From contig NZ_CP045309.1 in the NCBI RefSeq assembly GCF_009671205.1, positions 62,001 to 126,000 of the forward strand: a DNA stretch of 64,000 nucleotides. Direction: 5' to 3'. This document shows, piece by piece, positions 16,461-45,620 of this stretch (within the stretch, counting starts at the first letter, position 1; every line of letters starts with the position of its first letter). Source of the stretch: Micromonospora terminaliae (GTDB lineage Bacteria > Actinomycetota > Actinomycetes > Mycobacteriales > Micromonosporaceae). The notes below the pieces were generated by a model. It made no database searches, had not been told where the DNA came from, and saw only the letters and a list, made by a program, of their open reading frames with translations. The translations under genes and the position numbers were made by a program.

Positions 16461-17189
16461 TCAGTCGACCGGCTCGTCGGTGAGGCGTTCGCCCCGGCGG
16501 CGCAGCATGCCGAGCCCGGGGATGCCGGCCACCGCCAGCTTGAGGTCCCGGGTGACCGCCAGCAGGTCGTGCAGGTCCGGGCCTACCCGGTCCAGGGTGG
16601 CCAGGATCGGCAGCACGTCCGAGGTCAGGTGCTCCTTCAGCTTCGGCAGCTCGTCGACCAGCCGGATCGCCGCGGTCACCTCCTCCGGGCTGAGCTGCTC
16701 GACGAACCGGGTCGCCATGGGTGCGGCCCGGCGCAGCGCCGGCTCGTACGCCGCCAGCAGTTCGGCGGCGGTGCCGGCCGCCCCCTCGGCGGCGACCACC
16801 GTGCCGGCGGCCCGGGTGGCCACCGCGTCCGCCTCGACGACCAGGGTGCCCGCCGCCCGGGCCACCCGGTCGGCCTCGCCCACCACCACGGCTGCGGCCG
16901 TGGCCACGCCGGTGGCGGTCTCGATCGCCTCGGTGGCGGCGGCACTGATCACGCCGACCTCCCGGACCGCCGCCTCGGCGTCGTCGAGCACCCGGTCGGT
17001 GCGGTCCAGGGTGCCCTCGATCCGGTCGACCACCCCGTTGATCCGCCGCAGCAGCGTCTCCACCTCGTCGAGCACCGCGAAGGCGCGGGCCGGCACGGCG
17101 GCGAACGCGGCGGCCGAGCCGAACGCCTGGTCCAGGGCGGAACGGGTGAGCCCGACGACGGCGCCGGGACGGGGGAGGGGAATCGCCAT
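16461..17189 (-). CDS. protein of unknown function, Ala/Val-rich helical
   Basis: 242 residues from ATG 17189 (an in-frame start at 17210 is possible). There is no signal peptide. The middle (about 45-160) is strongly helical with repeated hydrophobic/Ala spacing, for example RINGVVDRIEGTLDRTDRVLDDAEAAVREV, and is probably a coiled coil or long helical bundle. A conserved-looking C-terminal half follows (RFVEQLSPEEVTAAIRLVDELPKLKEHLTSDVLPIL). I recognise no enzyme motif. It is convergent with the rhodanese gene and upstream of nothing else on its strand. Confidence 0.65.
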   Translation of the reverse strand: MAIPLPRPGAVVGLTRSALDQAFGSAAAFAAVPARAFAVLDEVETLLRRINGVVDRIEGTLDRTDRVLDDAEAAVREVGVISAAATEAIETATGVATAAAVVVGEADRVARAAGTLVVEADAVATRAAGTVVAAEGAAGTAAELLAAYEPALRRAAPMATRFVEQLSPEEVTAAIRLVDELPKLKEHLTSDVLPILATLDRVGPDLHDLLAVTRDLKLAVAGIPGLGMLRRRGERLTDEPVD

Positions 17190-17261
17190 GCCACCCAGTG
17201 TGCGTCCCACCGGCCAGCACCGCCGGGTGGCGGCGGGGCGGCCGGCGTCACACCCGGGCGG

Positions 17262-17744
17262 TCAGCGGCGGTCGCCCTGCTGCTCGACGGCCCGCTGAAC
17301 GGCCCGGTAGATCTGCCCGAACCGGAGCGCGTCGGGCGTGCGCAGCAGCAGCACCTCCCGCCCGTGGTGCTGCACCCACAGCTCGTGCACCCGGTTGCCC
17401 CGCTCGTAGGAGCGGTCCAGCCAGCTGAGCGGCACCTCCAGGAACGGGGTGAGGGCCAGCCCGACCACCACGAACGCGGCCAGGATGACCAGCGCGAGCT
17501 TCCAGTCGCCCCGGTCCTGCGCCGCCCAGGCCAGCGAGAGCACGCACACCAGCGCGACGAGCGGCGGCAGCGACAGTAGCAGGACCAGCACGCCGCGCCC
17601 CAGGACCCGGCCCCGGACCGCCATCGTGGTGGCGCCGCGGGCGTGCCAGACGTACGTGACGTCGGCGAGCGCGACGACGTGCCCGCCGGCGTGGATGGCC
17701 TCGGAGGTGACCTGTACCGCGTCGTCCCGGTAATAGAGGGTCAT
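17262..17744 (-). CDS. DUF6232-like membrane protein, copy A
   Basis: 160 residues. I prefer the second of two adjacent ATGs (17744), because TAGGCT at 17750-17755 is five bases ahead, giving a leaderless start and matching the N-terminus of its paralogue (MTLYYRDDAVQVTSEAI against [17 protein letters not shown]). A short beta-rich N-terminus (about 1-40), two membrane helices (about 48-70 and 78-98) and a C-terminal segment with [19 protein letters not shown] follow. It shares the whole layout with the gene at 18967-19491, including the block [15 protein letters not shown]. Function unknown. Its promoter faces the 75-bp repeat array. Confidence 0.78.
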   Translation of the reverse strand: MTLYYRDDAVQVTSEAIHAGGHVVALADVTYVWHARGATTMAVRGRVLGRGVLVLLLSLPPLVALVCVLSLAWAAQDRGDWKLALVILAAFVVVGLALTPFLEVPLSWLDRSYERGNRVHELWVQHHGREVLLLRTPDALRFGQIYRAVQRAVEQQGDRR

Positions 17745-18589
17745 CATTCAGCCTAACCACCCGCAGTCCAGTGTGGCCGGTGTCGCCGGCGCCTCCGCTC
17801 GCTGACGTGGACGACGAAGATGTCCACGTCGATGTGGGCGATCTGCTTCTCCTCGGCAGACCGGCGCGGGATCGGCTCCGCAGGACGGCGGGGTGCGCTG
17901 TCCGCCTTTCGAGCTGAGTCGTTCAAGACATCGCCCATCAGGCGCGGCCCTGACCGCTGGCCGTGCACGGCTCCGATCGCCTTTCGAGCTGAGTCGTTCA
18001 GGGCATCGCCCATCGGGCGTGGCCCTGACCGCTGGCCGTGCACGGCTCCGATCGCCTTTCGAGCTGAGTCGTTCAGGGCATCGCCCATCGGGCGTGGCCC
18101 TGACCGCTGGCCGTGCACGGCTCCGATCGCCTTTCGAGCTGAGTCGTTCAGGGCATCGCCCATCGGGCGTGGCCCTGACCGCTGGCCGTGCACGGCTCCG
18201 ATCGCCTTTCGAGCTGAGTCGTTCAGGGCATCGCCCATCAGGCGCGGCCCCGAACATGCCACGGCCCACCGGCGTTCTGTGGCGAGCGCTAGGCGTGGCG
18301 GATTGCACCCGGGCCCGCAACCCCCGGGCGCTCTGGCGGGCGGTGCCGGGTCGGACGGCGGTGAGTCGTTGGTGACATCAGCTCGACAGGCGGTCGGTAA
18401 GAGGGTTGGTGGTCGGCCGGGCGTCACCGGGGACCCGCAGGGCGGTCCCCGATCACGGGGGACAGCGAGGCGCCGGGACGGCCGAGGCGGCCGGGACGGC
18501 CGGGGCGGTGAGGCGGCGACTGGCCGCGCCGGGCCGAGGAGGGGTGGCCGGGGCGGCGGGGACCGGGGCCGTCGGGATAGCGTCCGAGC
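17745..18589. other. 845-bp divergent intergenic region containing the tandem repeat array
   Basis: The gap between the leftward DUF6232-like gene and the rightward NTF2-like gene. Bases 17905-18250 are the 75-bp tandem array. The flank 18251-18577 is G-rich with a purine-rich tail (GGGGTGGCCGGGGCGGCGGG-like near 18541) and no convincing gene. TAGGCT (17750-17755, minus) and TAGCGT (18578-18583, plus) are the likely -10 elements of the two flanking genes. Long open frames cross the region on both strands only because the repeat length is a multiple of three. Confidence 0.6.
17905..18250. repeat. five-unit 75-bp tandem repeat array
   Basis: Units start at 17905, 17980, 18055, 18130 and 18205; the fifth stops after 46 bases. 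Units 2-4 are identical. Unit 1 differs at four positions (offsets 22, 24, 36, 41) and unit 5 at offsets 36 and 41. Each unit begins CCTTTCGAGCTGAGTCGTTC. Offsets 19-49 can fold into a hairpin (TCAGGGC with GCCCTGA, inner CGCCC with GGGCG), and offsets 56-67 are the perfect palindrome GCCGTGCACGGC. There are no variable spacers, so it is not CRISPR. Near-identity of the inner units implies recent amplification or ongoing homogenisation. Confidence 0.95.
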
Positions 18590-19021
18590 ATGGTGGACCG
18601 GGACGGGGCCGGGGCGGCCCGCACCGAGCAGGAGCGCAACGTCGAGGTGGTCCGGCGGTACCTGCGGACCTTCGTCACCAAGGACCTGGCCGAGCTGGCC
18701 GAGGTGGTCGCCGAGGACGTGGAGATCTACGGCTCGGGCTCGGCGGTGCGCGGCCGGAGCTACCCGGAGGCGGCCGTCTCCTCGCCCGGGCTGACCGTGC
18801 TCGACCAGCGGATCCTGGAGATCTTCGCGGCGGAGGACCGGGTGGTGGTCTCGATGGCGCAGACCTACCGGCGCGACGCCACCGGGGCCACCACGGTGCA
18901 GAGCGCCTGCAAGATGTACCGGCTGGCCGGCGGCCGCATCGTCCAGTTCTGGGGCGAGCAGGACACCTACGGCCTGCTGCGTGGCCTCGGGCTGCTGCCC
19001 GACGGCCCGATCGTCTTCTGA
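18590..19021 (+). CDS. NTF2/SnoaL-like protein
   Basis: 143 residues from ATG 18590, with TAGCGT exactly six bases ahead (leaderless). The pattern [34 protein letters not shown], then a strand-rich part ending [29 protein letters not shown], is that of the SnoaL/NTF2-like cone fold (polyketide cyclase, isomerase or ligand-binding members). No catalytic residues can be assigned. Its 3' end overlaps that of the convergent DUF6232-like gene by 55 bp. Confidence 0.8.
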
Positions 19022-19491
19022 CCGGCCCGCTGACCGGGTGGCCCGCTCTCCATGGCCCGCTGCACCGCCCGGTAGATCTGGCCGAAACGCAGCGCGTCGC
19101 CGGTGTGCAGCAGCCGCACCGGCCGGCCCCGCCAGCGCGCCCACATCTCCAGCTCCCGGCTGCCCCGGGCGTACGAGCGGTCGAGGTGTTCGAAGAGCAC
19201 GTCGGCGAGCGGCCCGATGCCGAGGCCGACCAGCACGGACGCCCCGACGATGGCGATCGTGACCACGGCGGAGCGGTGCAGCCAGACCGCCAGCCCGATA
19301 CCGAGCACGGCGGCCACCAGCGGGCCGGCGAGGGCGGCGCCGATCGCGCCCCGGCCGGCGAGCACCCGCCAGGAGCGGTTGCCCCGGCGGTGCCACACCA
19401 CGCCCAGCTCGGCGAGGGGATAGCTGCGCCCGTCCACCCGGACGGCGGTGGAGGTGACCTGGACCGAGCGGTCCTCGTAGTAGCTGATCAT
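18967..19491 (-). CDS. DUF6232-like membrane protein, copy B
   Basis: 174 residues from ATG 19491 (GGGAGTGAGG just ahead). It is the paralogue of 17262-17744: [17 protein letters not shown] at the N-terminus, two hydrophobic helices (about 50-70 and 77-97), and [18 protein letters not shown] and [15 protein letters not shown] near the C-terminus. A 25-residue basic, proline-rich tail is extra. The stop codon lies inside the NTF2-like gene on the other strand, so the last 18 codons are antisense to its end. Function unknown. Confidence 0.78.
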
Positions 19492-19596
19492 GGCCTCACT
19501 CCCGGTGCGACCTGGAGCCGTCGACACCACACTGTCTACCCCAACGACCCTGGTCGTAAGGTTGGCACGCGACTTCGACGAGGAAGTGAGGGCAGC

Positions 19597-20370
19597 GTGG
19601 GCGAGTTCGTCAGGCTGGAAGTGAAGGACGGCGTCGGCACCATCCGGCTGGAGCGGCCGCCGATGAACGCGCTCAACACCCAGGTGCAGGAGGAGTTGCG
19701 CGCCGCCGCCGCGGCGGCCACCGCCGACGCCGAGGTCCGCGCGGTCATCGTGTACGGCGGCGAGAAGGTCTTCGCGGCCGGCGCGGACATCAAGGAGATG
19801 GCCGACATGTCCTACGTGGACATGGCCGAGCGGGCCGCCGACCTGTCCAGCGCCCTGGGTGCGATCGCCCGGATCCCCAAGCCGGTGGTCGCCGCGATCA
19901 CGGGGTACGCCCTCGGCGGCGGCTGCGAGCTGGCCCTGGCGTGTGACTGGCGGATCGTGGCCGACGACGCCAAGCTCGGCCAGCCGGAGATCAAGCTCGG
20001 CATCATCCCGGGCGCCGGCGGCACCCAGCGGCTGGCCCGCCTGGTCGGCCCGGCCCGCGCCAAGGACCTGATCATGACGGGCCGGATGGTCGACGCCGAG
20101 GAGGCGCTGCGGATCGGCCTGGCCGACAGGGTGGTCCCGGCGGCCGAGGTCTACGAGGCCGCCGTCGCCTACGTGAAGCCCTACCTGACCGGACCGGTGC
20201 AGGCGCTGCGGGCGGCCAAGCTGGCCGTCGACGGTGGCCTGGACATGGACCTCAACTCCGGCCTGGCCTGGGAGAGCCAGCTCTTCGCGGCGCTGTTCGC
20301 CACCGACGACCGGCGCGAGGGCATGGCCGCGTTCGTCGAGAAGCGCAAGCCGGGCTTCACCGGCCGCTGA
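19597..20370 (+). CDS. enoyl-CoA hydratase/isomerase family protein
   Basis: 257 residues from GTG 19597. It is a typical crotonase: [10 protein letters not shown] (oxyanion hole and CoA contact, about residue 63), [20 protein letters not shown] (second oxyanion Gly and a Glu at the hydratase position), and [21 protein letters not shown] with the second catalytic Glu (PEI). Both Glu residues that define hydratases are present, so hydration of trans-2-enoyl-CoA in beta-oxidation is likely. It is a single gene with its own hairpin terminator at 20381. Confidence 0.9.
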
Positions 20371-42812: not shown

Positions 42813-45620
42813 ATGGAGACGGGCGACCCGCGAAACTCCGTCCCGCCCGGGCGGACCGGCCCGTTCTTCGGCTTCGTCGGCGTGGTCGGCGTCCTGGCCC
42901 TGCTCATCTCGGCCGGGCCGCTGGCCGCGCTCCCCGACGAGCTGCCCCACCTGCCGGCCGCCTTCTGGACCATGGCGGCGCTGGCCGTCGCCTGCGACGC
43001 CCGCCCGTTCGTGCCGCCCGGCCGGCGCCAGACCTCGGCGGTCTTCCCGTCGACCTGCTTCACCTTCGCCATCCTGCTCGGCTGGGGGCTCGGTCCGGCC
43101 GTCGCGGTGCAGGCCGTGGCGGTCGCCGTCTCCGGCTGGCGGCTCGGCTACGCGGGCTGGCGCACCGCCTTCAACGGTGCCCAGTACGCGTGCGCGCTGG
43201 CCGCCGCGTACGCGGTCACCCGGCTCGGCCCCGGCGAGCTGTTCGGCGACGGCCGGCTGCACTGGACCGACGTGGCGGCGGTGGGCGGGGCCACCGCGGC
43301 CTGGTTCGTCGTCAACTACGGCCTGGTCAGCTGCGCGATCCGGCTGCGGTTCGGCGACCGCTGGTGGCCCAGCGTCCGGCAGGGCCTCGCCTACGAGCTG
43401 CTCTCCACCGGCTCGCTGCTGCTGCTCGCCCCGGTGCTGGTGGCCGCGGCCCGGGCCAGCGCCGCGCTGATCCCGCTGGTGCTCGTGCCGCTGTTCGCGG
43501 TCTACCGGATGGCCCGGCTCTCCGCCGAGCGGGAGCAGCTCGCCGACCTCGACCCGCTCACCGGGCTGCCCAACCGCAAGGCCCTGCTCACCGAGGTGGC
43601 CGAGCAGGTGCACCTGCACGCCGAGCGGGCCGCCCGTGGCGACGCGGACGCCCACCTGGCCCTGCTGCTGCTCGACCTCGACCGGTTCAAGCACGTCAAC
43701 GACGCGCTCGGGCACGCCGTGGGGGACCGGCTGCTGGTCGAGGTGAGTGCCCGGCTCATCGAGGTGATCGGTGAGGAGGACCTGGTGGCGCGGCTCGGTG
43801 GCGACGAGTTCGCCATCGTCGTACCCCGGCTCACCGGCACCGACCAGGCCCGGGAGCGGGCCGACCGGGTGGTGGCGGCGCTCGCCGAGCCGGTGCCGCT
43901 GGACGGCCTGCCGCTGGACGTGGGCGGCTCCATCGGCATCGCCCTCTTCCCCGAGCACGGCGAGGACTTCGCCACCCTCATGCGCCACGCCGACGTGGCC
44001 ATGTACGACGCGAAGCACCGCAACGACACCGTCGCCGTCTACGCGCCCGAGTCCGACCACAACTCCGCCGAGCGGCTGAGCCTCCTGGCCGACCTGCGCC
44101 GGGTGCTGGACTCCGGCCCGCCCGCGCCGACCGAGGAGCCGACCGGCGTCCGCGGCGGCGACGGCGCGGCCCTCGCGCCGGCGCCCGGCCTGCCCGCACC
44201 GGCCCCACCCGCCCACGGCGACGACGGGCCCCGCAACGGTGGCCGGCCCCGATCCGGCCAGGGGTTCTCCGGTGCCCCCGGCTCGGCTCGGGTCACGCCA
44301 CGCCGCGACCTGGAGGCGCCGGCACGGTGGCGGCTGCGGCGGCGCGAGCGGGTCGAGGTGCGGCACGACGACGAGCTGATCAACCGCATCGTCACGGGCG
44401 CCGACCCGATCCGCCGCCGGGCCACCCGCACGGCCCCGGCGGACACCCCGACGTCCGGCGACGGCGACCGCCTCACCCCGGCGCCCGGGGACAGCCTCAC
44501 CCCGGCGCCCGGCGACCGCCACGCCCCGGCGCCCGGGGACGGCGACCGCCTCGCCCCGGCGTTCGGTGGCCAGCCGGGCACGCTCCCCGAGGCCGGCCCG
44601 GACGTGACGCCCGACGACCGGCCCGCGCCGCCGGGCGGCCGGCCCGGCGCGCTCCCCGATAGCCGACCGGAGACGACGCCCGCCGGGGCTTCCGGGGAGG
44701 AGGCCGGTGGCCGGGCCGGAATGCGGTCCGCCGACGGCCCGGAGCGCGGCGGTCCGGACGTCCCGGACCGTGCTGCGGAGGGCGCCGCACCGGCGCGGAC
44801 CCGGGCGGCCGAGCAGCGTGCGGGCACCGCCCTCGACGACCCGGGCGAGATCACCATGTACTACCAGCCCCAGGTCGCCATCGCGACCGGCCAGGTGGTC
44901 GGTGTCGAGGCGCTGCTGCGCTGGCGGCACCCGCGCCGGGGCATGGTCGACCCCGGGGAGCTGATCCAGGTCGCCGAGCAGAGCGCCGTGATGCGGCTGC
45001 TCACCCGCCGGGTGGTGGACGACGTGGTGGAGCAGCTCGCCAAGTGGTCCGCGGCCGGCGTCACGCTGCGCGCCGCGCTCAACGTCAGCGTCCGGGACCT
45101 GCACACCGGCGAGATCGCCGAGCAGATCGCCGACCGGCTGGCCCGGTACGGCGTCCCGCCGGACCGGCTCCAGGTGGAGATCACCGAGGGCGCGCTGATG
45201 GCCGACCCGCGGCGGGTGCTGGCCAGCATCACCCAGCTGCACCGGATCGGCGTCGGCATCGCGCTGGACGACTTCGGCACCGGCTACTCGTCGTTGCAGC
45301 ACCTGCGCCGGCTGCCGCTGTCCGAGGTGAAGGTGGACCGGTCGTTCGTGCTCGGGATGGCCGACGACCCGGACGACGCGGCGATCGTCCGTTCGATGAT
45401 CGAGCTGGCCGCGGCGCTCGGCCTCCGGGTGGTGGCCGAGGGCGTCGAGGACGAGCGCACCTGGCGGCTGCTGCACGCGGCCGGCTGCGACGTGGCGCAG
45501 GGCTGGTTCTACGCCCGGCCCATGCCGGCCGAGGAGCTGGTCACCTGGCTGTCCCGCTACCGCCCGGTGCACCCGGCCGTCGCGGCGGACGGCGAGCGGC
45601 CGCGCCGCCCGTCCCGCTGA
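42813..45620 (+). CDS. GGDEF-EAL protein with membrane sensor (c-di-GMP turnover)
   Basis: 935 residues from ATG 42813. Seven or so hydrophobic segments (about 15-230) make an N-terminal membrane domain. The GGDEF domain (about 240-405) has [11 protein letters not shown] and an intact [12 protein letters not shown]. The allosteric I-site Arg is replaced (GEED before LVARL), so product inhibition is probably lost. A Pro/Gly/Asp-rich linker of about 240 residues follows, with short repeats such as LTPAPGDS. The EAL domain (about 665-920) has [29 protein letters not shown] and VKVDRSFV all intact. The protein can in principle make and degrade c-di-GMP. It is a single gene. Confidence 0.92.

Follow-up and report, generated by a model that had tools for sequence, protein, structure and literature searches.

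Results

The array and its intergenic gap

In the window, the whole 64,000-nt stretch of Micromonospora terminaliae DNA analysed here, an 842-bp chromosomal gap separates a DUF6232 gene from a SnoaL-like gene that is read in the opposite direction, which bears out the divergent gap proposed in the initial annotation. The gap holds a 75-bp tandem array, and a codon-usage gene finder predicted no gene inside it. The features of the gap and its borders are as follows:

17262..17747, minus strand: DUF6232 gene (PF19744), start side facing the array
17905..18250, plus strand: tandem array, with full 75-bp units at 17905, 17980, 18055 and 18130 and a partial fifth unit at 18205-18250
17960..17971, no strand assigned: 12-bp palindrome GCCGTGCACGGC, found again at 18035, 18110 and 18185 by unit comparison
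17998..18028, plus strand: hairpin of unit 2 (TCAGGGC AT CGCCC ATC GGGCG TG GCCCTGA), with the same hairpin in units 3 and 4
18590..19021, plus strand: SnoaL-like gene (PF12680), start side facing the array

Beyond the SnoaL-like gene lies a second DUF6232 gene on the minus strand (18967-19491 or 19530, according to the start chosen), and the SnoaL-like gene thus sits between two DUF6232 genes (17262-17747 and 18967-19491/19530). On the DUF6232 side of the array, the adjoining 122 bp (17783-17904) resemble a minus-strand coding remnant (EEKQIAHIDVDIFVVHVSE in one frame); by eye, nothing similar was seen in the corresponding gaps of loci L033-L036.

Tandem Repeats Finder (TRF) placed the array at 17903-18250, with a period of 75, 4.6 copies, 97% matches and a score of 654, the top of its 26 rows for the window. 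Together with a comparison of the units, this result confirmed that the array is real, with the correction that four of the five units described at first are full and that the fifth comprises only 46-49 bases. Units 2-4 are identical, as had been reported, and unit 1 differs from them at offsets 22, 24, 36 and 41. The changes at offsets 36 and 41 are indeed common to the outer units, the partial unit 5 having the unit-1 letters there and the letters of units 2-4 at offsets 22 and 24. A second, weaker array was found elsewhere in the window, at 44431-44561 (24/48-bp period, score 139).

The initial annotation had assigned a palindrome and a 12-bp hairpin to each unit. The palindrome is present in units 1-4 and absent from the partial fifth, and the hairpin is strong in units 2-4 and degenerate in units 1 and 5. 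The 12 pairs of this hairpin form two blocks (7+5) flanking a 2x2 internal loop. Folded as DNA, the hairpin of units 2-4 reached -13.5 kcal/mol (z -5.2, with 0 of 200 shuffles as low), against -4.2 kcal/mol for the equivalent stretch of unit 1, for which 43 of 200 shuffles were as low. Of the four changes that set unit 1 apart from units 2-4, three (offsets 22, 24 and 36) add pairs to the spacer hairpin and bring its energy from the higher to the lower value; two of these three changes are found in unit 5.

With 75 equal to 3 x 25, several mechanical open reading frames (ORFs) run open across the array. The frames that span it measure 160-547 amino acids, as would be expected of a repeat-protein gene with units of 25 codons; we regard such a gene as scarcely credible and rejected it, because the codon-based gene finder gave no coding signal and three array-crossing ORFs had no Pfam match over the cut-off. 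Other arrays of the same family, moreover, have periods that are not divisible by 3 (61 and 76). A multi-hairpin RNA, one of the roles initially proposed, gained no support either: there was no Rfam match in 17000-19600 at E values up to 1, and a consensus scan of 17700-18650 detected neither a sigma-70-like promoter nor a U-tailed terminator-like site. A known RNA family and a U-tract terminator were accordingly dropped as candidates for the array region.

Only the head of the unit is a common repeat

Of the two probes named in the initial annotation, the 75-mer and its first 43 bases, the latter was the apt one: the head of the unit recurs, with the commonality ending near base 29. A second whole 75-mer was found neither in the own genome (G000, 6.74 Mb, two contigs) nor in 150 other genomes of the genus, in a search that scored six candidates per genome and may miss weak copies. 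The 75-mer matched in 26 of these 151 genomes, the own genome included. Among the 25 others, the match consisted of the first 29-41 bases of the unit in 12, of 66-71 bases at 76% identity in two (G017 and G092), and of some 20-30 bases of the spacer in 11. Among the matches listed for other genomes of the genus, all 15 head matches were intergenic, 14 of them with the end motif described below, whereas all 12 spacer matches fell inside predicted genes and are taken as probable chance hits. Because head matches lie between genes and spacer matches within them, only the head appears to be a common repeat, and the second half of the unit was rejected as one.

A source locus for the whole unit in the own genome was also discarded, the matches listed being end-sized only. 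In the 80 orthologous loci described below there was no unit-length match, the best being 19 nt.

The element and its ends

The head copies, when read side by side, presented a motif that recurs between genes and frequently stands together with its own inverse, from which we recognised an element with the consensus CC-TKTSGAGCT-GARTCGTTnnnGACATC ... core-AGCTCSAMA-GG. Its ends at the array locus are:

17905..17933, plus strand: left end, CC followed by the inverted repeat TTTCGAGCT and the core GAGTCGTTCAAGACATC, supported by pattern matches in the own genome and the genus
18363..18390, minus strand: right end, GAGTCGTTGGTGACATC followed by AGCTCGACA and GG, with 0 mismatches to the right-end pattern, and recovered also by the ends scan

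The left end heads every unit of the array (also at 17980, 18055, 18130 and 18205), and the right end (G000:C1:80363-80390) is inverted relative to these left ends. Of the four roles suggested for the array in the initial annotation, a mobile repeat amplified in place came closest, since the head of the unit is a dispersed end and a right end begins 113 bp beyond the array, although no dispersal mechanism was found.

The element consists of two inverted ends of ~29 bp, and its interiors differ from locus to locus. The two ends either close on each other as a 35-bp palindrome or are separated by as much as several hundred bp. In a logo of 246 ends, the signal runs from -2 (the CC) to about +26, with little outside. 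Among 80 paired elements, the median span was 172 bp, and the 17-bp core was direct in 51 and inverted in 29.

The left-end and right-end patterns matched the own genome 20 and 22 times, respectively, with 0 matches for both controls, and these matches form 19 element loci when those within 1 kb are joined. A scan of loci L133-L178 for ends gave 141 matches, against 0 in the reversed control. In a family-level survey of 300 genomes, the own genome included, 75 of the 106 genomes of the genus had matches (656 matches versus 1 in the control), whereas 19 of 194 genomes of other genera yielded 20 matches versus 11 in the control, which is near chance. An order-level survey with a longer pattern found matches in 14 of 200 genomes, all of them among the 23 sampled from the genus. 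The number of matches per genus genome ranged from 0 (31 genomes) to 54. In the samples searched, the element is therefore a trait of the genus Micromonospora. A search of the open literature by topic and by sequence, which covers few subscription papers, returned no title or opening of an abstract on such a Micromonospora family.

The orthologous gap in relatives

Ends were present in 26 of 80 orthologous gaps beside the DUF6232 gene; at four of these 80 loci, the contig stops short of the next gene. On a gene tree (n=81), the presence of ends requires 20 changes, at least 14 of them on well-supported (starred) branches, and barely beats shuffled labels (mean 22.8, with 58 of 500 shuffles as low). 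We also noted by eye that the next gene in many of these 80 relatives is not SnoaL-like and has a beginning that resembles that of a DUF6232 gene.

The nearest relative in the gene tree is M. chaiyaphumensis (L034), in which the flanking gene is 98% identical and both genes are present around a 68-bp gap. Alignment with this gap, guided by the gene tree, defines one further feature of the window:

17782..18555, no strand assigned: 774 bp that are extra relative to the L034 gap

This extra sequence extends 123 bp to the left and 165 bp to the right of the element ends. The blocks that flank it are identical at 41 of 43 and 54 of 64 bases between the window and L034, and comprise ~34 bp of gap beside each start codon together with 9 and 30 coding bases, respectively. 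In AMSO31t (L033) and MA102 (L035), ends are found, including a recognisably related right end, without the 75-bp array. Absence of the array from relatives, which the initial annotation had named as one half of what would make it a neutral local duplication, thus holds among the relatives examined. We infer that the element was either ancestral to a small clade and lost twice or gained repeatedly, and that it was amplified only here.

These comparisons bear on the proposal that the array serves the DUF6232 and SnoaL-like genes as a repeated operator or a nucleoid-protein platform, with the number of units acting as a switch. Its position in a divergent gap and the regular spacing of its palindromes at 75 bp would suit such a role. 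However, none of the 80 loci that share the DUF6232 gene has the array, not even the nearest one with both genes, and the ~34 bp beside each start codon are preserved whether or not the array is there, so that we consider this role very improbable. It is in these ~34 bp that the promoters should lie.

Genomic placement of copies

We then classified the gaps in which copies lie, using gene calls from an unbenchmarked codon-usage finder of our own, which was trained on the fetched loci and picks up the long genes in the window. The count omits clusters at most 60 bases from the end of a stretch, the orthologous loci L033-L112, and also L113-L132, L226 and L228. Of the 110 element clusters that remained, 107 had no predicted gene inside and three contained one. 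Another five lacked a usable flanking gene, and 102 could be typed, giving 61 tandem, 14 divergent and 27 convergent gaps, compared with 166 tandem, 87 divergent and 36 convergent among element-free gaps of at least 30 bp (chi-square p 2e-4). Element copies are thus under-represented in divergent gaps, the rarest setting (14/102) and yet that of the window copy. The 19 loci of the own genome comprise 10 convergent, five tandem and four divergent gaps. The distances to stop codons cluster at 60-99 nt (37 of 127), whereas those to start codons have no such peak (8 of 86). This preference for positions behind stops could mean that the ends have a role in 3' regions.

One form of such a role would be that the ends are long hairpins serving as bidirectional 3'-end signals, either terminators or mRNA stabilisers, with the array as a side effect. 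Besides the bias towards convergent and tandem gaps and towards 60-99 nt behind stops, three solo 35-bp sites, picked for their long stems, folded with their flanks at -23.5 to -25.8 kcal/mol, and no shuffle was as low. However, complementarity of the outer pairs was 0.49 in 25 full sites, a value that shuffles also reach (mean 0.43, maximum 0.53). In 63 half sites it was 0.29, below the shuffled mean of 0.37. Selection for a hairpin, sought by covariation, was rejected, the shuffle test on the outer pairs of the 25 full sites, imperfect ones included, being not significant. In addition, there is no U-tract terminator in 17700-18650, the presence of ends at the array gap changes often among relatives, and the window copy itself sits in a divergent gap. 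Taken together, we consider a 3'-end signal to be a rather unlikely explanation.

Tandem repeats lie between the ends

With a TRF score of at least 80 as the threshold, tandem repeats cover 5,325 of 19,779 bp (27%) between the outermost ends, 4,348 of 51,621 bp (8.4%) outside the ends of the same gaps, and 1,946 of 63,227 bp (3%) in 224 element-free gaps of 150-1,500 bp. The 124 element gaps are not independent, as they include the orthologous DUF6232 gaps and the G071 copies, and they were admitted whatever their length; part of the tandem-repeat excess may reflect the greater length of element gaps. By score, the window array is fourth in this set. Periods such as 10, 174, 50, 75, 27, 76, 33 and 61 mark the units as local inventions. 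Of the 19 element loci in the own genome, eight have tandem repeats (TRF score of at least 60); besides the window array, those with an end inside the unit have periods of 76 (3.9 copies), 174 (2.9 copies) and 61 (3.0 copies). The unit includes an end in the window and at L134, L135 and L136.

Several other repeats were noticed. At L145 (G134), a 10-bp repeat of ~75 copies (TRF score 1321) lies in intergenic sequence beside element ends. By eye, a second hairpin, approximately AGATCTTGGACAGTTGCCGTTCG...CGAACGGCAACTGTCCAAGATCT, recurs between genes at L067, L083, L134, L168, L176 and others, and a third lies around GCCGAGGTGGCGG...CCGCCACCTCGGC at L135 and L039; both could represent additional repeat families in the genus.

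Tests for a transposon

We also assessed whether the ends are a non-autonomous transposon (a miniature inverted-repeat transposable element, MITE) that is moved by a Micromonospora transposase, in which case the array would have arisen from repeated end insertion or from transposase action on the left end. Terminal inverted repeats are present in the form of the ~29-bp inverted ends of the 80 paired elements, and dispersal is intergenic, limited to the genus and patchy. Furthermore, G071 appears to have undergone a burst, with 57 matches at no more than three mismatches and 1 in the control; four of its element loci run into the end of a contig (2, 5, 9 and 84 bases beyond the matched end), and another two contigs start 9 bases before an end, as near-identical repeats cause in draft assemblies. 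In G071, 17 of 20 aligned copies have common mosaic flanks of up to ~240 bp to the left and ~700 bp to the right of the left end. The repeated unit in this genome is thus larger than the end pair, and the moving unit may exceed the end-to-end span.

However, no target-site duplication was seen by eye in the flanks examined, alignment gave no clean point of insertion, and insertion or excision boundaries did not coincide with the inverted repeats in three filled/empty pairs from one locus (window/L034, L056/L101 and L058/L101), in which they lie 87-165 bp outside them. For L056/L101, the common flanks of filled relatives suggest a deletion rather than an insertion. No autonomous element with matching terminal inverted repeats was found among the fetched loci, whole genomes being screened for the Y1 transposase family PF01797 only. 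We rejected an autonomous copy that carries a transposase between its facing ends, since the genes found there in the loci read were host-type (DoxX and DivIVA relatives). In this connection, three genomes (L243, L244 and L007/L178) carry a small gene between facing ends 0.9-1.06 kb apart, which belongs to the DoxX family by Pfam in L243 and L244 and is clearly alike by eye in L007/L178.

The Y1 (RAYT) transposase that accompanies REP sequences did not qualify as the mover. PF01797 was present in three of seven genomes tested and was not found in the copy-rich G134; no ends lay within the four loci fetched around PF01797 genes, and the foot of the hairpin carries CC in the logo of 246 ends and not a GTAG or CGTC tag. 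Since neither a transposase nor a target duplication nor a precise excision came to light, membership in MITEs or REPs is not established, and we hold movement as a MITE to be possible but on balance doubtful.

Discussion

In our judgement, the array at this locus (4.6 x 75 bp) quite probably arose by lineage-specific tandem amplification, in which the left end of a dispersed intergenic Micromonospora element was copied together with 46 bp of adjacent spacer. The following course of events would produce it. The inverted ends and the spacer hairpins would stall or re-prime replication; direct copies of the end would then allow slippage or unequal exchange, by which blocks are duplicated. Template switching at a quasi-palindrome could have perfected the spacer hairpin: one unit would have gained the changes at offsets 22, 24 and 36, and that version would have filled the middle of the array. 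The array itself is probably a by-product of ordinary slippage without a selected role, and a neutral origin is easiest to accept because the sequence beside both start codons survives.

Known repeat families offer partial parallels. As described in the accessible text on it (PMC4596501), BrickBuilt (MITE464/PgRS) of Porphyromonas gingivalis is intergenic, has short inverted-repeat ends and contains a tandem minisatellite; it occurs in 19 copies in one genome, has a narrow host range and shows no transposase remnant, and its target duplications are irregular, being present in three of four complete copies with differing lengths. The same text reports one conserved 23-nt repeat, a conserved leader and tail, and terminal inverted repeats close to those of IS5-family insertion sequences (IS) (PMC4596501). 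On this description, the Micromonospora element is like BrickBuilt in being dispersed between genes, with defined inverted ends and a tandem array inside, and unlike it in that interiors and minisatellites vary by locus, the unit can hold an end and no parent IS is known. The BOX element of Streptococcus pneumoniae, in the portion of its description available to us, is likewise an intergenic repeat built of modules, with defined ends and, inside, tandem modules whose number varies (PMC3049150), an organisation that the Micromonospora element resembles. In BOX, however, boxB is one conserved module, whereas the Micromonospora units are locus-specific, and BOX is reported to make target duplications (PMC3049150), whereas none were seen for the Micromonospora element. 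Short palindromic extragenic repeats that occur solo or paired also recall REPs and CGTC-tagged palindromes, and CGTC REPs, according to the available text, also seem to lack a dedicated transposase (PMC3733652). Unlike REPs as portrayed there, the Micromonospora element has CC at its foot and not GTAG or CGTC, and its half-sites can be hundreds of bp apart. That text, so far as accessible, makes no mention of Micromonospora, Streptomyces or Actinobacteria (PMC3733652).

With amplification of an element end as the preferred reading, a formerly unexplained array becomes one visible product of a genus-wide family of small repeats, and the scattered, array-spawning family is a more interesting find than the array. 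Micromonospora is a genus known for antibiotics, and the family, if confirmed, would offer loci for typing strains. It would also prompt a search for the missing transposase or recombinase, and would be a natural system for how inverted repeats seed minisatellites at high G+C. A bolder reading, which we think unlikely, is that an unrecognised mobile or recombination system of Micromonospora has its active sites in the 29-bp ends, disperses between genes and repeatedly builds locus-specific tandem arrays between its ends; if true, this system would be a minisatellite-generating module of actinobacterial genomes.
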